A stretch of DNA of 64,000 bases from Aequorivita marisscotiae (GTDB taxonomy: Bacteria > Bacteroidota > Bacteroidia > Flavobacteriales > Flavobacteriaceae), in the NCBI RefSeq assembly GCF_029814825.1, contig NZ_CP122379.1, positions 2,790,001 through 2,854,000 on the forward strand, read 5' to 3'. A program made the position numbers and the translations under genes. The notes under the pieces are model-generated. The model did not search any database. It was not told where the DNA came from and saw only the letters and a program-made list of their open reading frames with translations. Numbering within the stretch: the first letter of the stretch is position 1; each line of letters begins with the position of its first letter. Shown here piece after piece: positions 1,588 through 13,571 of this stretch.

Positions 1588-2931
1588 ATGGCAGACGATT
1601 TCGATTTATTAGAAACAGATAAAAACACCACGCAGGGAAAGGTTGATGTAAACTGGGGCAAGGCCGTAGACCAAATGAAAAGCAAGTTGGCCCAGGAAGA
1701 TGATCCCGAAGTTAGACAGCGCATTTTAAACGCAACCTTAGACGACGTTGTTGAAATGGCTGAAAAAGACCGGGGTAACTTGTTAGATGCCATTAAAGAC
1801 CTCACCGACTATCAAGATGAGGTAGGAATCGTTTTTGAAAAATTTAGCACCTTAAATCCTGCCGAACAAAAAGTAATAGATCAAGCTGTAAAAGCATTGG
1901 AACGCGCCAAAATGGAACTGGAAGATGCCGAAAAAGTTACCGATAACTGGTGGAACAATCTCTGGGGCCGAAAGGCGAGAATTAGAAAAAAAGAACAAGA
2001 ACTTGTCGCCGCACAAAAAACACGCGACGGTGCAGATTTAAAGGCGAAACAAATGTTTCAGGAACGAATTGAAAGCGCCGATGTACAAACCTTACTGAGC
2101 GAACTTTCTTTTAAAAGTCAAGCTGCCGTAGATCGTCTTAAAAATAGAGAAGTTGAAATTAAGGAAGTTGAGGAAAAACTGCAAGTAGCAATCGTTGAAG
2201 CCAGTAAAAACCACACAAAAGCATTAGAGAAAAAAGAAGAAACCGAAGCTAAATTAGAAGAGCAATACGCACTTTTAAAACAGTCTCGCCAAGCCTTGGA
2301 AGAAATTAGCGATAAACAATCGCCAGAATACAGCGAAGCCATAGGAAAAGTTACAACTATTGAACAAAAAGTTGAAGAATTGGAAGGGCTCAAAAACGCC
2401 TACACTACCTTGGCTGCAAGTAAAGATAGTTTTGTGCAAAAACACAATTTAACCATAAAAGTATTAACCTCTTTACGTAGCAACTTGCAAACCCATCGCG
2501 CCAAATTAAAGAGCGATACAGACGAGCGACTTAAATATTACGACGGTTATGTGGTTGCGTTAAAAGCCAGAACAGATCAAGAGTTTGCCGCCATTCTAGA
2601 ACACTTGGGTGTAAAAACAGACGAACACATTGGTGCAACCTTAGCTTCAATGCACAGTGCAAGCGCCAAGGCCAGACAGGAAATGATGGACAACATTCCG
2701 GTTCACGAAAAGGTAATGCAAGGTGTGTATTCCAGCTATGCCGAATCGTTACAGGAAATTAGAAAGAAAGACGGTGAAATCCAGAAAAATTTCGCAGACC
2801 GCTATGGCATTGATATGAAAGAAATCTTCGAAGAATATTACGCAAAAGATGCCAATGCCCCATCCGAAAAAGACGACAATCCTGCGCCAAAAAAGCCAAA
2901 AACAGATGTCCCGGACGATTTGCTTAGTTAG
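1588..2931 (+). CDS. Coiled-coil protein of unknown function, first gene of an AAA+ cluster
   Basis: A 447-residue, highly charged and mostly helical protein without signal peptide or membrane segment. Residues about 85-300 are rich in heptad-like Glu/Lys/Leu/Ala patterns (for example REVEIKEVEEKLQVAIVEAS), indicating long coiled coils. A conserved-looking WWNNLWGRKARIRKKEQEL segment lies near residue 122. The tail is low-complexity, Pro/Asp/Lys-rich and ends VPDDLLS. The overall look is faintly like TelA-type toxic-anion-resistance proteins, which also have a long helical core and pair with AAA+ proteins, but no diagnostic motif was found and this is only a suggestion. It is the first of six same-strand genes; an imperfect -7 box (TATATTTC) lies near 1486. 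Confidence 0.75.
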   Translation: MADDFDLLETDKNTTQGKVDVNWGKAVDQMKSKLAQEDDPEVRQRILNATLDDVVEMAEKDRGNLLDAIKDLTDYQDEVGIVFEKFSTLNPAEQKVIDQAVKALERAKMELEDAEKVTDNWWNNLWGRKARIRKKEQELVAAQKTRDGADLKAKQMFQERIESADVQTLLSELSFKSQAAVDRLKNREVEIKEVEEKLQVAIVEASKNHTKALEKKEETEAKLEEQYALLKQSRQALEEISDKQSPEYSEAIGKVTTIEQKVEELEGLKNAYTTLAASKDSFVQKHNLTIKVLTSLRSNLQTHRAKLKSDTDERLKYYDGYVVALKARTDQEFAAILEHLGVKTDEHIGATLASMHSASAKARQEMMDNIPVHEKVMQGVYSSYAESLQEIRKKDGEIQKNFADRYGIDMKEIFEEYYAKDANAPSEKDDNPAPKKPKTDVPDDLLS

Positions 2932-3120
2932 TTGGTAGTCTTTTGGTAATGGGAAGATGACGTTTAATATACGGACATAGGACTGAATGGCGTCACACAT
3001 ACAACTAAAAATGTACAAGATTGATTTAGTTTAGTCTTAAATCTTTCAACCAAGCAGTCTTAAGTCCTATAACGTCCACGTGTTGCCAAAGCTTTAGCGG
3101 AGGCACAAATGGTCTTACGT

Positions 3121-3148
3121 CTCAAATCTAAAATCTGAAATCTGAACA
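3121..3148 (+). repeat. Four 7-bp tandem repeats of the CTCAAAT family before a start codon
   Basis: Four head-to-tail heptamers read CTCAAAT, CTAAAAT, CTGAAAT, CTGAACA and end seven bases before the ATG at 3155. The same heptamer family occurs at the hisH/hisA junction (21951-21985) and, degenerate, before hisD. Confidence 0.7.
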
Positions 3149-3154
3149 AAAAAA

Positions 3155-4210
3155 ATGTCACTAAACTCCATAGTTACTCCTTTAGACAGTGCTATTCTTG
3201 AAACCAAGGATCAATACAAAGTGTATTTTAAAATTGTAAATCACGCTTTTAAGAACCTTCAGGATGCTTTGGCAAAAAACGACATTTGTAATCCCATTGA
3301 AGTAACCTTTATAAAGCAATACTGCGAACTACTCACCTACTCGTTGGAAGCTTTCAGAATAAAATACCTTTTTGACGATGAAGAAAAAATGCGGGTTGAT
3401 CTCACCGAATCTGGCTTTCCCAATTATTTAGAATTTAGATATCTTATCAACGACCTTAGTTTACGGTACGAACATCTAAATAAGCTTCCACAAGTAGAAA
3501 CTTTAAAAAAGGAGTTTTTGGAAACCCTTTTAAAGGATCGCGAACATATTTCAGAAAGAAAGTTACGGCAAGCTGCTTCAATAATTTATTACACTTCGGT
3601 AGATAAAAACTATATTTTCAGACGATTTATTCAAGGTAAGATTATTACGAATATTAATAAATCTGATGGTGAATTTATGGTGAGTTGGAGCTTTTACGAT
3701 ATTACACTAAACCGTGCGTTTATCTGCTTTTTAAATTTCGATTTGTACAAAGAATCGGTTAGTGAATATACACCTAAAATATACGAAGTACTTGAGGACG
3801 TAGCAAACAGAAGCATGAGTTTAGATATGATGGCCTATGCCATAGATAAAAAATTGCCAAAACTACTGCCCAAAAAATTAAAAGTTATGGATTTTGGCCC
3901 CCTTCACAACATTTTTGCAAAAGACGAACTAGATATAACCCACGTTTTATTGCAAGGAATTGTAGATAAAACAGTAGCTATTTCGGCTTATGCTATTTCA
4001 ATTTCAATAGACGAAATATACAGTTCGGGCAATTTTAGTGAGGGCAATATTTTTAACAGACAGGAATTACAACTTTGGGAGCATAAAAAGCGACAGAAAT
4101 ATTTGTTTACCTCGCATCGGGTCATGCAACTACTGTACGATAAAATTCCCGAAACACTCCATTCACTAACTATAGACCCAATTGAAATCCCCGAATTAAA
4201 ATTAAATTGA
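3155..4210 (+). CDS. Unknown soluble protein of the AAA+ cluster
   Basis: A 351-residue protein with no signal peptide, membrane segment or recognised motif. It looks mostly helical in the first 150 residues, then mixed, with a small beta-rich stretch near residues 155-190 (GEFMVSWSFYDITLNRAFICF). A hydrophobic stretch near residue 275 (TVAISAYAISISIDEI) is too short and polar to be a clear membrane helix. The stop codon overlaps the ATG of the following ATPase gene in a TGATG arrangement, so the two are probably translationally coupled and the products may form a complex. The start is the first ATG after the heptamer repeat. I do not recognise the family. Confidence 0.7.
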   Translation: MSLNSIVTPLDSAILETKDQYKVYFKIVNHAFKNLQDALAKNDICNPIEVTFIKQYCELLTYSLEAFRIKYLFDDEEKMRVDLTESGFPNYLEFRYLINDLSLRYEHLNKLPQVETLKKEFLETLLKDREHISERKLRQAASIIYYTSVDKNYIFRRFIQGKIITNINKSDGEFMVSWSFYDITLNRAFICFLNFDLYKESVSEYTPKIYEVLEDVANRSMSLDMMAYAIDKKLPKLLPKKLKVMDFGPLHNIFAKDELDITHVLLQGIVDKTVAISAYAISISIDEIYSSGNFSEGNIFNRQELQLWEHKKRQKYLFTSHRVMQLLYDKIPETLHSLTIDPIEIPELKLN

Positions 4211-6165
4211 TGGAACACAACAGTACATTTCCTATAAAACTTTCAGAATTAGAGGCGCTTCGCAATGAGGCAACTTCCTATTTAAAAGGAATTCAGTGGG
4301 AACAAGGCAGCAAAGCAAAACGCCGCGACAAAAACGTGGCAGATACTTCAATTATGATGTATTTGGCCAAGGCAAATGGCACGGCAAACAATGAGGTTAT
4401 TTCAATTTCAAAGACCATTTTGGCGCTAAAAAAAAGACTATTGCCAGATTCAATAGCCATTCCCTTGCGTTTAAACCAAGGACTTTTAGCCTTACAAGAG
4501 GGATTGACAATGGCCATATGGCTTCGCGATAATTACTCCGATGCCTCGGGCCTATCGGCTTTAAGTGAAAAACTCACCACGTTAGATGCTGCACAAAGAC
4601 ACGAATTTGACAGTAAACAACAAACCGCTACGGCATTTATGCTTTACGGTTGCGCCTACAGAATTTTACACGAGTTAAAACCAAGTGTTTCGGACGATCT
4701 GGCGGTAATGAAAAACAAATTTGCCGGTATCCCCGAATTATCCCTCATGTCGCCACTCAAGGGTATTTCGTGTATGTTGTTTTACTTTGACAAATACTTA
4801 AATCACCCTGAAATTATTACGAGCGACGAAGATGTTGCAATTTTTAGTGTTGTATTTTTTGAAACGATTATCGTTGAAATTCAAATGCGAATTGCTTCCT
4901 TAGATTTTACCGAAACCATTGAAGACCGCACCTATAAACTTGAAAAAAGCGACTTTGCCATTTCAGGATGGGAAAACACCTTGGAAGGTACCGCCAAAAG
5001 TGTTGAATTCAATAAAATACAATTCGAGGAAATTGTAGGTAATCGCGATGCAAAACACTTCGCTCGCCGTTTAACCGAACGTATGCTGAGCTATGATTTT
5101 GAAGCGAAAAAAAATCCTTTTCAAGAATTAGGTGGGTTTATGCCCGTATTTATGGGATATGGAATTCCCGGTACTGGAAAAAGTATGCTAATAGCAGCAA
5201 TCGCAACAAGATTAAAAATGCATTGCGATAATCTGGATATTCCTTTTCTTTTCCATCCCATGCCAGATACCTTAATCTCTACTTTTCAGGGCGGTAGCGC
5301 CGAAAAAATGGTACAGTGGATGAAGCCGTTGAGCGATCCCACAAAACTAATTTTTGCACCAATTGATGATGCAGAAAACAATTTACAGGAACGAACCGCA
5401 CAAGGCGTTTCGGCAGGTGTAAAAGAAGTTATAGGCGTATTTCTGAGATATACAGAGGGCGCCTACGCCATAAATTACGGCAATAGCAGCATTGGTTTAT
5501 TTACCAATCTTCCAGAAATGTTAGATAAGGCAGTTATTAGCCGTGTACAAGGTAGGTTTAAGATAGACGGAGCACGAACTATTCCAGATTTTATTGACCA
5601 AGATTACCTTTGGTGGCGCAAGTTTGAAAAAACCATGCCCGATTTCGTAAATATGTCAAATCCTGAAAAATATACATTTTTAAGCGAGCAAGGTCTGGTT
5701 CAAAATTTAGGCGAAATATTAAACCAAAACGAAAAGCCAACAGAAGCAAAGGTTTTGGAGATATACGAGCGTACGGAAAATAAATACAACCCCAATCAGC
5801 ATTTGTTTTTCGCAGAATTATATAAAAATATACAAAAGGAATTTGCTTTTTTCTCTTCACGCGATATCCGGAATATTCAGAGTGCTATTTCGCTTAGATT
5901 ATCAGATTTCGATTTGCCCAAGGAATGGTTTGAAGACCCGACGCTTTACTTCAAAAAAGATTACAACACAAAGTTTAAAATGTTGCAAGACTTGATGAAG
6001 CAAAATATGAAAGGCCTCAATTTTAGCGATATTAGAAGGCAGGAAACCGTACGATACCTGGATAATGTTGCAACCATAGCCGACACTGATTTTAAACGAC
6101 AGGTAGAAGGGCGCATTGCCGATATGAAAGTTCAATTGGCCGCTCGCAGTTTTTTTGACAATTAA
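4210..6165 (+). CDS. AAA+ ATPase with a long N-terminal domain, cluster core
   Basis: A 651-residue protein. The first 250-270 residues are an unrecognised helical domain; a AAA module follows. Visible motifs are Walker A GIPGTGKS (318-325), a pore-loop-like TLISTFQGGSAEKM after it, a Walker B FAPIDDAE with an Asp-Asp pair (386-387) and an acidic residue two places on, sensor 1 (GLFTNLPEM) and an arginine-finger-like VISRVQGR. The C-terminal ~150 residues form a helical lid region. Such classic AAA modules act as hexamers that remodel proteins. The Glu of Walker B is replaced by Asp, which may slow hydrolysis. The longest frame starts at a TTG one codon upstream (4207); I chose the ATG because it makes the usual TGATG overlap with the preceding stop. 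Confidence 0.85.
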   Translation: MEHNSTFPIKLSELEALRNEATSYLKGIQWEQGSKAKRRDKNVADTSIMMYLAKANGTANNEVISISKTILALKKRLLPDSIAIPLRLNQGLLALQEGLTMAIWLRDNYSDASGLSALSEKLTTLDAAQRHEFDSKQQTATAFMLYGCAYRILHELKPSVSDDLAVMKNKFAGIPELSLMSPLKGISCMLFYFDKYLNHPEIITSDEDVAIFSVVFFETIIVEIQMRIASLDFTETIEDRTYKLEKSDFAISGWENTLEGTAKSVEFNKIQFEEIVGNRDAKHFARRLTERMLSYDFEAKKNPFQELGGFMPVFMGYGIPGTGKSMLIAAIATRLKMHCDNLDIPFLFHPMPDTLISTFQGGSAEKMVQWMKPLSDPTKLIFAPIDDAENNLQERTAQGVSAGVKEVIGVFLRYTEGAYAINYGNSSIGLFTNLPEMLDKAVISRVQGRFKIDGARTIPDFIDQDYLWWRKFEKTMPDFVNMSNPEKYTFLSEQGLVQNLGEILNQNEKPTEAKVLEIYERTENKYNPNQHLFFAELYKNIQKEFAFFSSRDIRNIQSAISLRLSDFDLPKEWFEDPTLYFKKDYNTKFKMLQDLMKQNMKGLNFSDIRRQETVRYLDNVATIADTDFKRQVEGRIADMKVQLAARSFFDN

Positions 6166-6267
6166 CCCAAAGATTTCCTGCCGTGGAAAATTACCCACTA
6201 TAAGCCAAAAAAACTACCGGGAAATAGCCATTGGCATTGAATAAAAACATTTGAATAAACAACTATT

Positions 6268-7518
6268 TTGGATAAATTAAAACAAGCGGGATTATTTGGC
6301 AACGGCCTTGTAAAGGTTACCGGCAGTTTGGTAAAACGCTACAACGGATGTTTGGCATTGCTCGGCGTTTCGGCTAGCAAATTAACCACATTTTCGGTCG
6401 ATGCCGCTGGATGGAGCCCAGAAATTGCCGATGAAAAAAACAATAATTTTTATCTTAACATTGGAGAAGCAAACGCCAATGCTATCATTGTTTCGCCACA
6501 ACAAGAAGGTAAGCCCGTCTTTATGCCCTACCACAGTTTTGACCGAAATTTAATGGAGGCGGTCTTTGCGGCCTATCGCAATCAGATTAAGGATATTACC
6601 AAAGATTCCGCGCTGGTTGTACAGCTAGATCAGAATATTGATGCCTATTACGAACCTTTCGATTTGTTGAATTACAACAAAATTGCCATTAGTTTTCTTG
6701 TACTCGATGACCTTCAAACAAAGCAAAAGGAACAAAATGAACTTATAAAATTATTCGAAACAGGAAATAACTTTATCAATCGTGAAATTCATCAAAAACT
6801 AATTGATTCTGCTACAAAATATGGCGATTTGCGCAATCGGAAACTTCAATTAGCAGACCTGAGTTTAGATATTACTTCGTTTTACACAAAAGCTTTTGGC
6901 GGTGTATTTGTATTACAGGATTTTATTAAGCCAATTCTCGTTTTTGAATCTAAGGAAACCTTCAATCAAGCCATTAAAAATACAACCTACGACGTTTTAT
7001 TATTTCACATTCAACACGACGAATTGTTGTCCACGCTTAAACGCGATATAATAACGGAGATTAATTTTGTGAAAGCTGTTAAAAAAGAGCGCTACGAACG
7101 TGTAAAAAAACATCTTTTTTCAACTTATTTAAGTAATACAGATCACCCAATTTCCGAGATATTAAATAGTAAATTGTTATTTAAAAAATACTTAAATGAA
7201 TTGCCTATCGCAGCACAAAAACAAATTATGTGTGTAGAGATCTTTAATCAGAAAAAAAGCATCGAACCCAATTTGGTGGCCGAAAATTCGATAGAACCTT
7301 ACTTTATAAAAGCCTTACAAGAACCGCACTCGTCATTGCAACCTGAAAATCAGGAGCTAATCTGGCAGCTTTTAACTAAGGTTATGCCTGTAGATCCTGT
7401 ATATTTATATTGGTATGATAAAGAAAACTTTTACAGGCAATTTGCTTTGTGGACCGATAGTTACAAAGATTGGGCAATAGATTGTATCTTAGAAGCACTT
7501 AAAAACGAAACACCATGA
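6268..7518 (+). CDS. Unknown soluble protein of the AAA+ cluster (TTG start)
   Basis: A 416-residue protein without recognised motifs, signal peptide or membrane segment. It begins MDKLKQAGLFGNGLVKVTG and looks like an alpha/beta N-terminal domain (to about 180) followed by a helical C-terminal half with a Trp/Tyr-rich end (VYLYWYDKENFYRQFALW). No ATG exists between the upstream in-frame stop and the first conserved-looking residues, so the TTG at 6268 is taken as start; an ATT start cannot be excluded. It ends in a four-base ATGA overlap with the next gene, so it belongs to the cluster transcript. Function unknown. Confidence 0.7.
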   Translation: MDKLKQAGLFGNGLVKVTGSLVKRYNGCLALLGVSASKLTTFSVDAAGWSPEIADEKNNNFYLNIGEANANAIIVSPQQEGKPVFMPYHSFDRNLMEAVFAAYRNQIKDITKDSALVVQLDQNIDAYYEPFDLLNYNKIAISFLVLDDLQTKQKEQNELIKLFETGNNFINREIHQKLIDSATKYGDLRNRKLQLADLSLDITSFYTKAFGGVFVLQDFIKPILVFESKETFNQAIKNTTYDVLLFHIQHDELLSTLKRDIITEINFVKAVKKERYERVKKHLFSTYLSNTDHPISEILNSKLLFKKYLNELPIAAQKQIMCVEIFNQKKSIEPNLVAENSIEPYFIKALQEPHSSLQPENQELIWQLLTKVMPVDPVYLYWYDKENFYRQFALWTDSYKDWAIDCILEALKNETP

Positions 7519-8039
7519 CCTTTGAAATCATAGTTTTTATCGCCGCTGTTTTATTTGGAATTCTCTTGTATTGGACCGAATCTAAAAGCAACCGACTTTA
7601 CCGATTTTTCAACAAACTTACGCATAGCAAAGAGTTGCAGATGAAACCGGAAAGCCGAAAGGGATTCGTGCATCAACAAAATTTCCTGATGCGCTTTGTT
7701 TGGATTACCCTGATGTATTTATTGGCAGCCATTGTAATTGCAGTGGTTCTGCCTTTTGTGGTTAACTATATTCAATACTTTATTTCGGCAATCGTAGCTA
7801 CAATTCTCGGAACTTATATTGCTTCGCTTTTTCTTTTTGCACGAGATAAAACGAAAAAAGAAAATCTTGAAAAGGCATTTGCCAAAGGAAAAGAAACCAT
7901 TGGAGAGTTTACACAGGACATTCGTGATAATTTTGACTCTGAGGAAGAAATTGACCCAGAGCCTAAGACTAGTACAAAACCTGATGAACCCAAGTTAAGT
8001 GCGCGCGAAAGATTAAAAAACAAAGGCATGATTAAATAA
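7515..8039 (+). CDS. Small membrane protein of the AAA+ cluster
   Basis: A 174-residue protein with three predicted membrane helices: residues about 3-20, 57-80 and 85-108 (FISAIVATILGTYIASLFLF). The C-terminal 65 residues are charged and contain an acidic stretch (NFDSEEEIDPEPKTS) followed by a basic end (SARERLKNKGMIK), so they are probably cytoplasmic and could dock the soluble cluster proteins. It overlaps the preceding gene by four bases (ATGA). No family recognised. Confidence 0.7.
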   Translation: MTFEIIVFIAAVLFGILLYWTESKSNRLYRFFNKLTHSKELQMKPESRKGFVHQQNFLMRFVWITLMYLLAAIVIAVVLPFVVNYIQYFISAIVATILGTYIASLFLFARDKTKKENLEKAFAKGKETIGEFTQDIRDNFDSEEEIDPEPKTSTKPDEPKLSARERLKNKGMIK

Positions 8040-8141
8040 ATAATTACGGCTAGACCATTGACGGAAAAGATATTCTGAGAGCGTACTTTAAATTAAAACT
8101 GACGATTTATTTGAAAACAATGTACATTTAATTTTGAATTG

Positions 8142-9779
8142 ATGGGGATAAGAAATTATTGGCAAAAAGGACCAAAGCAAAAAAGAATACTTTTAATCAG
8201 CGGGATAATTCTGCTGTTATTGCTATTCTTTCTACGCGACGATTATCAACCTGTGCTACTTTTTCTGCGCAAATTTATTTTTTTAATACTCATTAGCTTG
8301 CTGTTTTTATGGTTTACGCTTTCAAAATTTAGAAGTGCAACCAGCGGCGGAAAACGGGTGCTTATATTGTTGGGAATTGCGGCATTTTTTGTAACCAGTT
8401 GGTTTTTTGGTTGGCAAATTGGCCTTTATAAATACATGCAATCTTACAATGTGTTTAACAATCTGAAATTAATTGAACTACACGAACTCCCCTTAACCCA
8501 AAACGAACGAATTCAGCCATTTAACAATATTGTTACCATGGCTTATGAAAGCATTGGCGAAACTCAAGAGGTATCGCATCCACATTTGGTTCGGGTAGAT
8601 AGCTCCAACAGATGGACTATGGCCGTACAGCCAGCTAAAGAATATACTTGGCAACGAATTAACGACAATACCAAAGAACTCTTTTCCGTGGAAAGCACCT
8701 CCCCTTTTCCGCGATTTTCAGATACCAACAGAATACCAGTAACCTTTTCTATCGGCGAATCGCTCGCTTTTAGCCGAAACACCTACAATGCAGTGGTGCA
8801 GCGCTTTAATATTCTTCAGCTATTTAATCTTGAACCTGAACAGGTTTATTATATGAAAAACGACAGCGGCAATTGGGTGCAAGTAGTAAGTTTAATTAGA
8901 TGGAAAGGTTTCTTTTTTCCTTATCCAGCCTACGGTGGCGTAATGGTTATCGACGCCGGAGCGCATGGTTTTTCAGATTATTTAGAGCGAATTACAATTG
9001 GGAAAGGTACGTATATTCCACCCGACGAAATAAAGAACCATCCGTATTTAACCCGTCAAAATACATTGTCGGAAAGGGTATCGAGACTCGAAGCACAGTC
9101 CTTGCAATTTTTAGCCGGTTTTACAGATCCTTTACCGTGGAATATGGAAACTGCTGTAAAAATTCCCGATTTGGCAGACGATGAAAATCAGCAACCTTTT
9201 GTAACCGATTTCAATTTTAACGGGATGGATGTAGATGCCTTTAGTGGGTTATATCATTGGTTTGGCCTAGAGCCAATTGGCGAGGAGCGTACCAGCTTAT
9301 CATTTAGCGTCCTCGTACCGGCAGACGGTACAGATAAATTATACTATTATAATCACGCAGCAAAAAAAGAAGGCTTGGCAGGTGTAAGTGCCATGCCCCT
9401 AAAGGTGATTGAATCGAGAAAGGAATACGATTGGTCTGTAAATAAACCTGTAGAGTTTAGGCCATTTATAAAAGAAATTGCCGGAAGAAAACGATTGTTC
9501 GTTCTTTCAACGGTAACTTCAAAACGCGACAACAGCAAAAAATTTGACGGAGCTGCTACCCCAGATTTAGCTTTAATTGACGTAGAATATCGCGATGTTG
9601 TCTGGGTAGATGCGAAACACCCGAGCGAGTGGAATTCAAAAATACTTGAGCAATTGGGCGAAACTTGGAAGGCTTCGGAAGGACTCACGGATAAAGATTT
9701 ATATCCAGAAAAAGTTGAAATTGATGTACAACCCGTTATTGAGAGAGATTCAGTTTTAATTCAAGTGAATGGAATGTAA
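8142..9779 (+). CDS. Large membrane protein of the AAA+ cluster, extracytoplasmic domain
   Basis: A 545-residue protein. Three hydrophobic helices sit in the first 95 residues (about 16-33, 41-60 and 70-90), after which some 450 residues are soluble. With a basic N-terminus inside (YWQKGPKQKR), three helices place the large domain in the periplasm. That domain is rich in beta-prone stretches and aromatic residues (GFFFPYPAYGGVMVIDAG; FSGLYHWFGLEPIG). It has no recognised motif. It lies 102 bases after the small membrane protein and is the last gene of the cluster; together the two could carry a signal between the envelope and the cytoplasmic AAA+ protein. Start set to the ATG one codon after the TTG that opens the longest frame. 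Confidence 0.7.
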   Translation: MGIRNYWQKGPKQKRILLISGIILLLLLFFLRDDYQPVLLFLRKFIFLILISLLFLWFTLSKFRSATSGGKRVLILLGIAAFFVTSWFFGWQIGLYKYMQSYNVFNNLKLIELHELPLTQNERIQPFNNIVTMAYESIGETQEVSHPHLVRVDSSNRWTMAVQPAKEYTWQRINDNTKELFSVESTSPFPRFSDTNRIPVTFSIGESLAFSRNTYNAVVQRFNILQLFNLEPEQVYYMKNDSGNWVQVVSLIRWKGFFFPYPAYGGVMVIDAGAHGFSDYLERITIGKGTYIPPDEIKNHPYLTRQNTLSERVSRLEAQSLQFLAGFTDPLPWNMETAVKIPDLADDENQQPFVTDFNFNGMDVDAFSGLYHWFGLEPIGEERTSLSFSVLVPADGTDKLYYYNHAAKKEGLAGVSAMPLKVIESRKEYDWSVNKPVEFRPFIKEIAGRKRLFVLSTVTSKRDNSKKFDGAATPDLALIDVEYRDVVWVDAKHPSEWNSKILEQLGETWKASEGLTDKDLYPEKVEIDVQPVIERDSVLIQVNGM

Positions 9780-9790
9780 AAAAATTTGCC

Positions 9791-12700
9791 TTGCTACAAA
9801 ACAAAATCACAAAATCTATTAAAAATAGATACCTACTCTTTCTATTTACTATAATTCTTATTATAGTAACAGTTTTATTTATTGTATATCGCAGCATCAC
9901 AATTCAAACTTCCAATCTTCAACTTGTAAAAATTACATATAACCAAAGTTTTCTTGTGCAGAAAATCTTTGCGGCCACCCACCTTTTTGATACGCACGAA
10001 TCTTATAAAATCGATCCGTTGCATGTAAAGGAATTCAGTGAACTAACTGCTAAATTTGAAATTTTTCAAAAAAAATTAATAAATCAATCCACTACCCCTA
10101 ATGTAAATGCAAAGGGCGATTCGTTAATTAAAGCTAGCTTACCCATTGCAAATATGCTACTTACTTCCGCAAAAACCTTTACTGCGGCCAATGATCCAAT
10201 TACGACAAAAAATGCGTTGACAGCGATTCAAAATGCGGCAACGGAGTACAATATTATTATCAATAAAATTTCTGACATACACGTAGAACTTGAAGAGGAT
10301 CGTCTGTTAAATTTAAGACGTTCAATGTACTTTTTTGGCACTATTTCAATTTTACTATTATTGGGAGAATATATTTTTATCATTGTTCCTACATTGAATC
10401 AATTATTTCGAAAAAACGAACAACTTACCCAATCTAATAAAGAATTAGCAAGTTCAGAAAGCACCATATTGGCTTACGTGAAAGAACTCGAAAAACTAAA
10501 ACTAGATTTAGAAAGACAGGAAGAATACAACAAAATATTTATAGAACAAGCGCCTACTGCCATTGCAATGCTAGATAAGGATATGAAGTATATAGCGGTA
10601 TCGCAACGTTGGATAGAAGATTATAAGATGCAAGACCAAGAAATTATTGGCCGGTCTCACTACGATCTCTTTCCAGAAATTGGTGATGAATGGAAGAAAA
10701 ACCATCAAAAATGTTTGCAAGGAGCCATAGACACTTGCGATGAAGCAATATTTAAACGTGCTGATGGTAGCGTACAATGGATTTATTGGGATGTACGCCC
10801 TTGGTATATCTCTGAAGGTGAAATTGGCGGGTTATTGATGCATACTGGTGATATTACTTCCATTAAAGAAAGAGAATTTGAAAAAACCCGTATTCAAGAA
10901 ATTTTAGATAAAACCAATGAAGTTGCAAGAATAGGAACTTGGGAAGCAAACCTACAAACCCAGAAAGTACTCTGGAGCAAAGTGGTTTACGATTTACATA
11001 AAGTGCCCTACGACACAGAAATAGATATTGAATCTGCAATTAATTATTATAAAGCAGGTAAAAATAGAGACCTTATAAAACAAGTTGTTCACGAAGTTAT
11101 TACTCAAGGAAAGCCCTACGATGTTGAAGTTAAGGTAGTAACAGCCGATGGATCTGAAATTTGGGCCCGTGTAATAGGACAACCGGAATATAGCAATAAT
11201 GAGTGCGTTGGAATTTTAGGTGTGTTTCAAGATATTACTAATTTTAAAAAGGCCCAATTAGCTTTAGATAAAGCACATAATGAATTAATGGCAATTCTAA
11301 ATTCGGGTCCCATATCAATTATTTCTTCAGATACAAATGGAGTAATAACCCATTTTAATCACGGTGCAGAAAAAATGTTAGGTTATTCTGCCGATGAAGT
11401 TATAGGAAAGCTGAGCCCCGAGATATTTCATCTTGAGGAAGAAATGGAGCAATTTAGATTAGATATGGCAAATAAAATGCACGTTAATCCAACCAAATTT
11501 GATCCCTATGAGGCCCTATTTAAGTTAAATTATGACGACACGCGCGAATGGACATATAAAAGAAAGGATGGCTCATCTTTTCCAGTACTATTAACAGTTA
11601 CAGCCATTAAAAACCAGCGCGGTAAAAGCTTAGGACTGCTAGGAATGGCCCTTGACATTACTGCCCGTAAAAAAACTGAAAACGAATTAGTAAAGACCAA
11701 CTACTTACTTAATACAGTGGTTGAGATAACAAAAATAGGCCATTGGCAATGGAATCTTGCAGCCGATAAGGTTGAATGGTCTAGCCATTTACACAAAATA
11801 TTCGATCTTGAGGAAGTGGAAACCAATTTAAAGTATGATAGTTATTTTAATTTCGTTCATCCGGACGATAAAGATCTAGTAACTACCTCCGTAGAAAATG
11901 CCATAGCTACTAAAGTATTTGAAAAATACACACATCGTATAATAACAGCAAAAGGCAAATTAAAAACACTGCAACTCTTAGGAGAGGTATTTACAAATGA
12001 CAGCGGAGAAGTAGTTGAAATGATTGGTACAGTACAAGACATTACCGAGCAAAAACTGGTAGAAAACAAATTTAGAGGGCTTTTGGAATCTGCACCCGAT
12101 GCCATGGTAATTGTAAATGAACGTGGAGAAATTCAACTTATTAATAAACAAGCAGAAAAACTTTTTGGATATCACATTGACGAATTGTTAAACCAACCCG
12201 TAGAAGTCCTAATTCCAAAAAAATTTAAAGGTCAAAACAATCACAAAAACCAACGAGACAAATTCTTTACAAACCCAAAAGTTAGGTCCATGGGAGCGGG
12301 TAAATCTGAAGTTTTATACGGTATAAATAAAAAAGGAAAGGAAATTCCAGTTCAGATAAGTCTGAGCCCTTTGCAAACAGAAGAAGGTCTTTTGGTATCT
12401 GCCGCGATTCGGGATATTACTACACAGTTAAAAACAGAACGTAAAATTATTCAAGCCAAAGACAATTTAGAAGTATTAACACAGCATTTATCTGCACAAA
12501 ACAAACAATTAGCAGAATTCGCTCAAATAACATCGCACAATTTACGAGCTCCCGTAAGTAATTTAAATGCCTTGTTACACCTCTACGATATTTCAGAAAG
12601 CCAGGAAGAAAAGGAAGTATTGTTTACCAAATTTGAAACTGTAATTGAACATTTAACTTCAACCTTAAACACGTTAATAGAAGCTCTTAAAATGAGAACT

Positions 12701-13177
12701 CGCGAAAAAGCCGAGTTAAAAATTGTTTCCTTTCAAGATACATTCAACAAAACAAAAGAAATACTTTCAGGACAAATTATTAATACCAGTGCAAAAATCA
12801 CAACAGATTTCACAAAAGTTTCTAAAATTAAATACCATCAAACGTATTTAGAAAGTATTTTTCTTAACTTAGTTTCAAATGCTATAAAATATCGATCTCC
12901 TGAAAGAATTCCTGAAATTTTAATCAAAGCGGAAATTGTAGATGGAAAAATTAACTTAACAGTTCAAGACAATGGTCTTGGAATTGATTTAGAAAAACAC
13001 GGTCATAAATTGTTTGGCTTAAACAAAACCTTCCACAGACATCCAGATGCCAAAGGAGTGGGACTTTATTTAACCAAAATTCAAGTAGAAACTTTAAGAG
13101 GTTCTATATTTGCCACAAGTGAAGTGGGTAAAGGCTCAGTTTTTACAATCGTATTTAATAATAAACCGTATGAATAA
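9791..13177 (+). CDS. Membrane-bound multi-PAS sensor histidine kinase
   Basis: An unusually large kinase of 1128 residues. Two membrane helices (about 15-34 and 178-200) bracket a helical periplasmic sensor resembling a four-helix-bundle/CHASE3 type. A short coiled coil leads to about five PAS/PAC units between residues 245 and 885, visible from repeated endings such as GDITSIKE, GVFQDITNF, GMALDITARKK, GTVQDITEQK and AAIRDITTQ. The dimerisation helix carries the phospho-acceptor His916 in ITSHNLRAPVSN, followed by an ATPase domain with N box (NLVSNAIKYRS), DNGLGID and GVGLYL. There is no receiver domain in the protein; the next gene supplies one. Start is a TTG, 11 bases after the previous stop, with no ATG before the first helix. 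Confidence 0.9.
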   Translation: MLQNKITKSIKNRYLLFLFTIILIIVTVLFIVYRSITIQTSNLQLVKITYNQSFLVQKIFAATHLFDTHESYKIDPLHVKEFSELTAKFEIFQKKLINQSTTPNVNAKGDSLIKASLPIANMLLTSAKTFTAANDPITTKNALTAIQNAATEYNIIINKISDIHVELEEDRLLNLRRSMYFFGTISILLLLGEYIFIIVPTLNQLFRKNEQLTQSNKELASSESTILAYVKELEKLKLDLERQEEYNKIFIEQAPTAIAMLDKDMKYIAVSQRWIEDYKMQDQEIIGRSHYDLFPEIGDEWKKNHQKCLQGAIDTCDEAIFKRADGSVQWIYWDVRPWYISEGEIGGLLMHTGDITSIKEREFEKTRIQEILDKTNEVARIGTWEANLQTQKVLWSKVVYDLHKVPYDTEIDIESAINYYKAGKNRDLIKQVVHEVITQGKPYDVEVKVVTADGSEIWARVIGQPEYSNNECVGILGVFQDITNFKKAQLALDKAHNELMAILNSGPISIISSDTNGVITHFNHGAEKMLGYSADEVIGKLSPEIFHLEEEMEQFRLDMANKMHVNPTKFDPYEALFKLNYDDTREWTYKRKDGSSFPVLLTVTAIKNQRGKSLGLLGMALDITARKKTENELVKTNYLLNTVVEITKIGHWQWNLAADKVEWSSHLHKIFDLEEVETNLKYDSYFNFVHPDDKDLVTTSVENAIATKVFEKYTHRIITAKGKLKTLQLLGEVFTNDSGEVVEMIGTVQDITEQKLVENKFRGLLESAPDAMVIVNERGEIQLINKQAEKLFGYHIDELLNQPVEVLIPKKFKGQNNHKNQRDKFFTNPKVRSMGAGKSEVLYGINKKGKEIPVQISLSPLQTEEGLLVSAAIRDITTQLKTERKIIQAKDNLEVLTQHLSAQNKQLAEFAQITSHNLRAPVSNLNALLHLYDISESQEEKEVLFTKFETVIEHLTSTLNTLIEALKMRTREKAELKIVSFQDTFNKTKEILSGQIINTSAKITTDFTKVSKIKYHQTYLESIFLNLVSNAIKYRSPERIPEILIKAEIVDGKINLTVQDNGLGIDLEKHGHKLFGLNKTFHRHPDAKGVGLYLTKIQVETLRGSIFATSEVGKGSVFTIVFNNKPYE

Positions 13178-13571
13178 TCTTCAAAACATCTGCATAATTG
13201 ATGATGATAGCATTTACCAATATGCCATTACTGCTACTATCAAAGCTTATAAGTTAGCAGAAAACGTTTTGGTGTTTTCAGATGGCGAAGAAGCGTTAGA
13301 CTTTATAAGGGAAAATGCTGAGAACAATGATAATCTACCTGATATAATTTTATTAGATATTAATATGCCGGTGATGGATGGTTTTCAATTTATAGATGAA
13401 TATAAATTGATAAAACCAAGAATGGAGAAAAAAATAGTAGTATATATGGTTTCTTCCTCCGTAGATCCGCAAGATATTGAAAAAGCAAAAGCGATAAGTG
13501 AAATTGCAGACTATATTATTAAACCAATCAGACCGAAAGAATTGGCTTCTATTGTAAGTTCATTTTTTTAA
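13170..13571 (+). CDS. Single-domain response regulator
   Basis: A 133-residue receiver domain with no output domain, like CheY or Spo0F. The acidic pocket (IDDDS, residues 10-14), the phospho-acceptor Asp63 in LLDINMPVMDG, the switch Ser in VSSSVD and the Lys of IIKPI are all present. It overlaps the kinase gene by eight bases (ATGAATAA), so it is almost certainly the kinase's direct partner. The open frame extends 20 codons upstream to 13110, but those lie inside the kinase gene, and the ATG at 13170 gives a standard receiver start. With no DNA-binding domain it must act by protein contact or in a phosphorelay. Confidence 0.92.
   Translation: MNNLQNICIIDDDSIYQYAITATIKAYKLAENVLVFSDGEEALDFIRENAENNDNLPDIILLDINMPVMDGFQFIDEYKLIKPRMEKKIVVYMVSSSVDPQDIEKAKAISEIADYIIKPIRPKELASIVSSFF

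Follow-up and report, generated by a model that had tools for sequence, protein, structure and literature searches.

Membrane-remodelling pairs of PspA/Snf7 proteins with AAA+ ATPases are described in PMC11237479. Here we report, in a 64,000-nucleotide stretch of the Aequorivita marisscotiae genome (Flavobacteriaceae; contig NZ_CP122379.1, forward-strand positions 2,790,001 to 2,854,000; hereafter the window), a cluster of six forward-strand genes (1588–9779) resembling the Vps4/ESCRT-III and PspA (Vipp1) systems, in that an ATPase of the classical AAA class, whose pore loop is aromatic, stands beside a long helical coiled coil, near membrane proteins. The six genes encode, in order, a 447-residue coiled-coil protein (1588–2931), a 351-residue soluble protein (3155–4210), a 651-residue AAA+ ATPase (4210–6165), a 416-residue DUF6638 protein (6268–7518), and two three-helix membrane proteins of 174 (7515–8039) and 545 residues (8142–9779). 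Unlike the PspA/AAA+ pairs as described there, the module has two additional soluble subunits, the 351-residue and DUF6638 proteins. It also appears to differ from PspA, whose profile (PF04012) has zero matches in the window genome and three sequences of which gave a probability of 1.2 when compared with the coiled-coil protein by hhalign, and from Vps4, the MIT family being absent from the Pfam scan of the ATPase. No description of this module was found in the literature, and DUF6638 is not mentioned in the literature searched. Based on the conserved gene order and shared distribution described below, the six genes very probably work together as one system.

An orthologue of the ATPase was found in 116 genomes (at half length in one of them, G570), and up to 20 kb was fetched round 60 of these genes, hand-picked for spread and size of contig from the 115 excluding that of the window. 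Open reading frames (ORFs) come from a mechanical script that may miss real genes masked by antisense shadow ORFs. All six genes occur in the same order and on the same strand in 57 of the 60 family loci, and the neighbourhood is therefore more than a chance arrangement; since the flanking genes form different sets among the loci, the conserved order is not due to wide synteny. With iterated profiles, the coiled-coil, 351-residue, and ATPase genes were detected in all 60 loci, the DUF6638 gene in 59, the gene for the 174-residue protein in 58, and that for the 545-residue protein in 57; in one exception (L076), gene 6 would extend past the edge of the fetched stretch. The cluster genes are not always adjacent, and the gap between the ATPase and DUF6638 genes reaches 9.5 kb. 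An earlier reading made from the letters of the window (the sequence-only reading) had proposed a single system and had named beforehand, as grounds for giving it up, a failure of the six genes to stay together in related genomes; they do stay together, and the shared occurrences given next point in the same direction.

At E ≤ 1e-40, the ATPase was found in 114 of 397 family genomes (77 of 237 genera), with one match per positive genome. In a draw of 395 genomes from the phylum it was present in five, all from the window's family, and DUF6638 was found in the identical five; 15 genomes from the order's other families gave at most an AAA-domain match (1/15, E 5.9e-4). A search of 118 family genomes for the 545-residue protein gave 39 positives, which are the ATPase-positive genomes over that range (20 of the 79 negatives were individually listed, none of them ATPase-positive). 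The coiled-coil protein, the ATPase, and the 545-residue protein are better conserved than the other three; in alignments drawn from no more than 27 of the 60 family loci, the ATPase is 65–96% identical to that of the window, and the 545-residue protein is 63–91% identical in 27 relatives. The nearest named proteins, for example from Flavobacteriaceae bacterium TP-CH-4, Cellulophaga, and Dokdonia, stand at 82–83% identity.

Part of the cluster extends beyond the phylum. In a tblastn search of plasmid records, the ATPase and DUF6638 were found in the same ten records (four Vibrio, four Sinorhizobium, one Shinella, and one Rhizobium), and in the four records that were opened, genes 1 and 2 have distant counterparts ahead of the ATPase gene. 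When one genome per species was scanned, at least 567 confirmed stretches were obtained, the best 80 of which, Alphaproteobacteria judging by their titles, were analysed together with the four plasmid loci (84 alpha- and gammaproteobacterial loci in all). Profiles of the coiled-coil, 351-residue, ATPase, and DUF6638 proteins matched in 82, 83, 83, and 79 of these loci, respectively, and those of the 174- and 545-residue membrane proteins in none of the 84. All four genes are present in 77 loci, always in identical order and strand; six of the other seven loci are at or close to the end of a contig, and L122 has no DUF6638 in its stretch. The coiled-coil, 351-residue, ATPase, and DUF6638 genes form a fixed four-gene soluble core in two phyla. 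Of 149 genomes sampled from the order to which Roseovarius atlanticus belongs, 89 carry the ATPase (one as a short fragment and one split on two contigs), as do 24 of 349 genomes of the corresponding phylum draw. In a second protein search, the best 120 matches listed also included relatives in Neptuniibacter, Spartinivicinus, and Psychromonas. Marine genera make up many of the named carriers.

The membrane part following the core varies with lineage. In loci of the Rhodobacteraceae type (groups named by record titles), the DUF6638 gene is followed by the gene of an 88-residue two-helix protein and/or that of a DUF1523 protein (E 8e-70 for the single protein tested, in L111), and in those of the Rhizobiales type by that of a DUF2333 protein. 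Among the 79 alpha- and gammaproteobacterial loci carrying DUF6638, such a partner was recognised after the core in 63 (88-residue protein with DUF1523, 36; DUF1523 alone, 10; 88-residue protein alone, 7; DUF2333, 10). These counts are lower bounds because shadow ORFs mask genes; an annotated DUF2333 gene in L106, for example, was overlooked by the script. Each of the four proteobacterial partners tested has two hydrophobic segments, which are far apart in the DUF1523 proteins, and profile comparison detected no relation among the 88-residue protein, DUF1523, DUF2333, and the 174- and 545-residue proteins. From these comparisons, we read the arrangement as a fixed four-protein engine with a lineage-specific membrane module.

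The ATPase is a classical AAA protein: it matches PF00004 above the cut-off (E 1.2e-8; 35.9 bits versus 21.2) and contains Walker A (residues 318–325), an aromatic pore loop (357–363), Walker B (382–387), the sensor 1 asparagine (Asn433), and one or two arginine fingers (Arg445 and Arg449). In 144 ATPases (from the window, the 60 family loci, and 83 alpha- and gammaproteobacterial loci, L136 being excluded since it has no closed ATPase ORF), Walker A of the form GxPGTGK(S/T), the aromatic pore loop, the sensor 1 asparagine, and both arginines are invariant. The pore loop reads F-Q-G in all 61 sequences of the window and family and Y-Q-G in all 83 others; threading AAA ATPases of the Vps4/CDC48 type have an aromatic pore-loop residue with a glycine soon after. 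By profile, the PDB matches are CDC48, the proteasomal ATPases (PAN/Rpt), TRIP13, Vps4, katanin, and FtsH, mostly limited to residues ~315–453; they leave the larger part of the N-terminal 270 and C-terminal 190 residues of the protein uncovered. In contrast to this likeness, Walker B ends in Asp-Asp in 144/144, and the two CDC48-type PDB chains shown aligned have Asp-Glu, with which Walker B of classical AAA proteins usually, though not obligatorily, ends. For the ATPase, NCBIfam listed CdvC, at 18.7 bits of 650, and all rows of that scan for the six proteins were far under the cut-offs.

Among the other soluble proteins, the coiled-coil protein starts with FDLLET, contains an aromatic WWNNLWGRK segment, and ends with DDLLS; a W/F-WNN motif is present in all 60 family loci, the exact WWNNLWGRK in 54, and an acidic tail with LL in 58. 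This protein is probably the ATPase's substrate or polymer. The 351-residue protein, with zero Pfam families at E ≤ 1, has ten invariant columns across 49 sequences. The product of gene 4 matches PF20343 (DUF6638) at E 9.7e-26 over profile positions 1–392 of 439 (91 bits versus a cut-off of 27), and its AlphaFold2 model is confident (predicted local distance difference test, pLDDT, 92.3; predicted template modelling score, 0.87), with no PDB match found. It is possible that these two proteins are adaptors. None of the coiled-coil, 351-residue, 174-residue, and 545-residue proteins reached a Pfam cut-off.

In the hydropathy profiles, the 174-residue protein has three hydrophobic segments and a basic loop, and the 545-residue protein three such segments followed by ~450 residues; the ATPase has one borderline segment (208–226, mean 1.65), and the coiled-coil, 351-residue, and DUF6638 proteins have none. 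The 174-residue protein continues through a charged linker to a C-terminal tail of the SAR(E/D)R type, found in 55 of 58 family loci. Together with the basic loops, hydropathy fits the predicted cytosolic location of this tail and the predicted periplasmic location of the conserved ~450-residue domain, whose conservation may hint at a fixed partner or ligand; the sequence-only reading had supposed that this domain senses. Two pairs of neighbouring genes overlap, the 351-residue and ATPase genes by TGATG (4208–4212) and the DUF6638 and 174-residue genes by ATGA (7515–7518), the ATG of the ATPase at 4210 sharing the last base of the preceding gene. The ORF list offers alternative TTG starts one codon earlier for the ATPase (4207) and the 545-residue protein (8139); ATG 4210 is the likelier start because relatives align from it, and ATG 8142 because of the consensus of relatives. 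The gene set, both overlaps, the ATPase motifs, and the three-helix architectures given by the sequence-only reading were thus all recovered in the DNA and the hydropathy profiles. Its two soluble proteins of unknown kind remain so in the case of the 351-residue protein, which has no Pfam family, and gene 4 now has a family name, DUF6638, which is itself a family without function. Its further suggestion that the ATPase acts on the coiled-coil protein is compatible with the sequences.

Tentatively, at slightly less than an even chance, we propose that the products of the six genes make up a single AAA+ remodelling machine linked to the membrane. The ATPase would assemble as a ring that grips and threads the long coiled-coil protein, so unfolding or disassembling it, and the 351-residue and DUF6638 proteins would serve as adaptors joining the ring, the coiled coil, and the membrane. 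The 174-residue protein may recruit the soluble core via its cytosolic tail, and the outer domain of the 545-residue protein may couple the ATPase cycle to the state of the envelope, such that the module would maintain or remodel the inner membrane or the envelope under some condition. By analogy, the working would probably be like that of Vps4/ESCRT-III or of PspA with its AAA+ partner. A bolder version, which we regard as rather doubtful, is an ESCRT-like bacterial membrane-remodelling machine with an origin separate from PspA/Vipp1, in which a four-protein soluble engine common to Bacteroidota and Proteobacteria (an AAA+ ring, a coiled-coil polymer, and two adaptors, of which one may have a new fold) would be combined with interchangeable and unrelated anchor and exodomain proteins (the 174- and 545-residue proteins; the 88-residue protein and DUF1523; or DUF2333).

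Several observations weigh against a single remodelling system. In locus L092, the genes of the two membrane proteins were not found beside the DUF6638 gene. In L091 (genome G514), genes 4–6 are not beside gene 3; this genome nevertheless retains the gene of the 545-residue protein ~850 kb away from the first three genes (L219), a point in favour of the module, and the DUF6638 and 174-residue genes were not found in the stretches L091 and L219, the remainder of G514 not having been searched for them. The ATPase is present in just 2 of 24 genomes of the window's genus, and the function is therefore dispensable in that genus. As for the mechanism, the aromatic segment and DDLL tail of the coiled-coil protein were not seen in the alpha- and gammaproteobacterial relatives (a looser pattern of the segment occurs in 2 of 82, and the tails differ). 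Its AlphaFold2 model is all-helical with a pLDDT of 60, matching only helical bundles of many kinds, and at this confidence a fold comparison is too weak to assign the protein to ESCRT-III or PspA. ATP hydrolysis could be slow or absent because Asp-Asp replaces the usual Asp-Glu in Walker B. Finally, 16 of the 79 loci with DUF6638 have no membrane partner by the ORF procedure, and in the Vibrio locus L105 no membrane gene was recognised beside the four core genes.

Walker B also bears on another explanation, improbable in our judgement, namely that the ATPase acts as a chaperone for conformational repair or maturation, like RuBisCO activase or MoxR-type ATPases, and activates an enzyme or a complex of the envelope, the coiled-coil protein being a scaffold rather than a substrate. 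The lack of the usual glutamate might suit a slow remodelling cycle, the soluble partners belong to no enzymatic family, and the highly conserved outer domain of the 545-residue protein could be the client; yet none of the six proteins is a recognised client enzyme, and the coiled-coil protein belongs to the core, whereas the outer domain does not.

More unlikely still is a conflict or anti-phage system with the ATPase as effector and an envelope-anchored sensor. The patchy distribution in genus and family would agree with it, as would the AAA domain, which weakly resembles IetA (20.7 bits in PADLOC and 16.5 bits in NCBIfam). The PADLOC scan gave weak rows only; the other five proteins reached at most 11.9 bits, and with no IetS row among the six, membership in IetAS was rejected. 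In addition, the single match in each of the 114 positive genomes, the recurrence of the same neighbours, and the identity of the ATPase within the family argue against such a system, and no relative was confirmed in viral contigs, nor in phage records at E ≤ 1e-10. We give little credence to a further possibility, in which the coiled-coil protein would form a helical bundle shaped like ClyA/YaxA that inserts into membranes and is loaded or taken out by the ATPase, with WWNNLWGRK as the membrane-contacting tip. The analogy to Ter/TelA stress systems drawn by the sequence-only reading, sharing with these no more than a general layout (a coiled coil, an ATPase, and membrane proteins), is highly improbable and was dropped, as the TelA profile (PF05816) has zero matches in the whole window genome (controls matched in 3 of 14 known genomes), neither TerD nor TelA appears when the six proteins are scanned against Pfam at E ≤ 1, and hhalign of the coiled-coil protein with one TelA sequence, a weak test, gave a probability of 0.1.

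Directly upstream of the cluster in the window, a 204-residue DEAD-box protein (684–1298) has the first helicase domain only (PF00270); a relative occupies the same place in the closest locus, L045 (4991–5608), and in no other of the 60. A 1128-residue multi-PAS histidine kinase begins 12 bases past gene 6 and is followed by a response regulator (9791–13571); the kinase was not found in L045, and in L075 and L076 the ATPase and DUF6638 genes are separated by a large ORF matching the profile of this kinase. In 25 of the 60 loci, the same gap holds hydrolases of a NUDIX family (PF00293 in the one copy tested; for example, L068 8432–9022), and in Sinorhizobium meliloti Ak57 (L106 10938–12683) it holds an endonuclease-domain gene and an IS4-like transposase. 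Ten copies of a 118-residue family (L072 7001–7357 and relatives), resembling the four-helix proteins of 23S rRNA intervening sequences, are present in various cluster gaps of 8 of the 60 loci, as if repeatedly inserted. Upstream of the cluster and on the opposite strand, L220 carries genes (7528–10739) that resemble, on reading their sequences, DNA ligase D and Ku of non-homologous end joining.

The module unites DUF6638 (PF20343), DUF1523 (PF07509), and DUF2333 (PF10095), functionless names that are here bound to one gene module, with several unnamed families, and the function of its genes would explain several orphan families together. If it is true that the module remodels membranes, the carrier bacteria would possess a new ATP-driven envelope machine; if the ATPase is instead a chaperone, it would be an AAA+ protein with a naturally altered Walker B.

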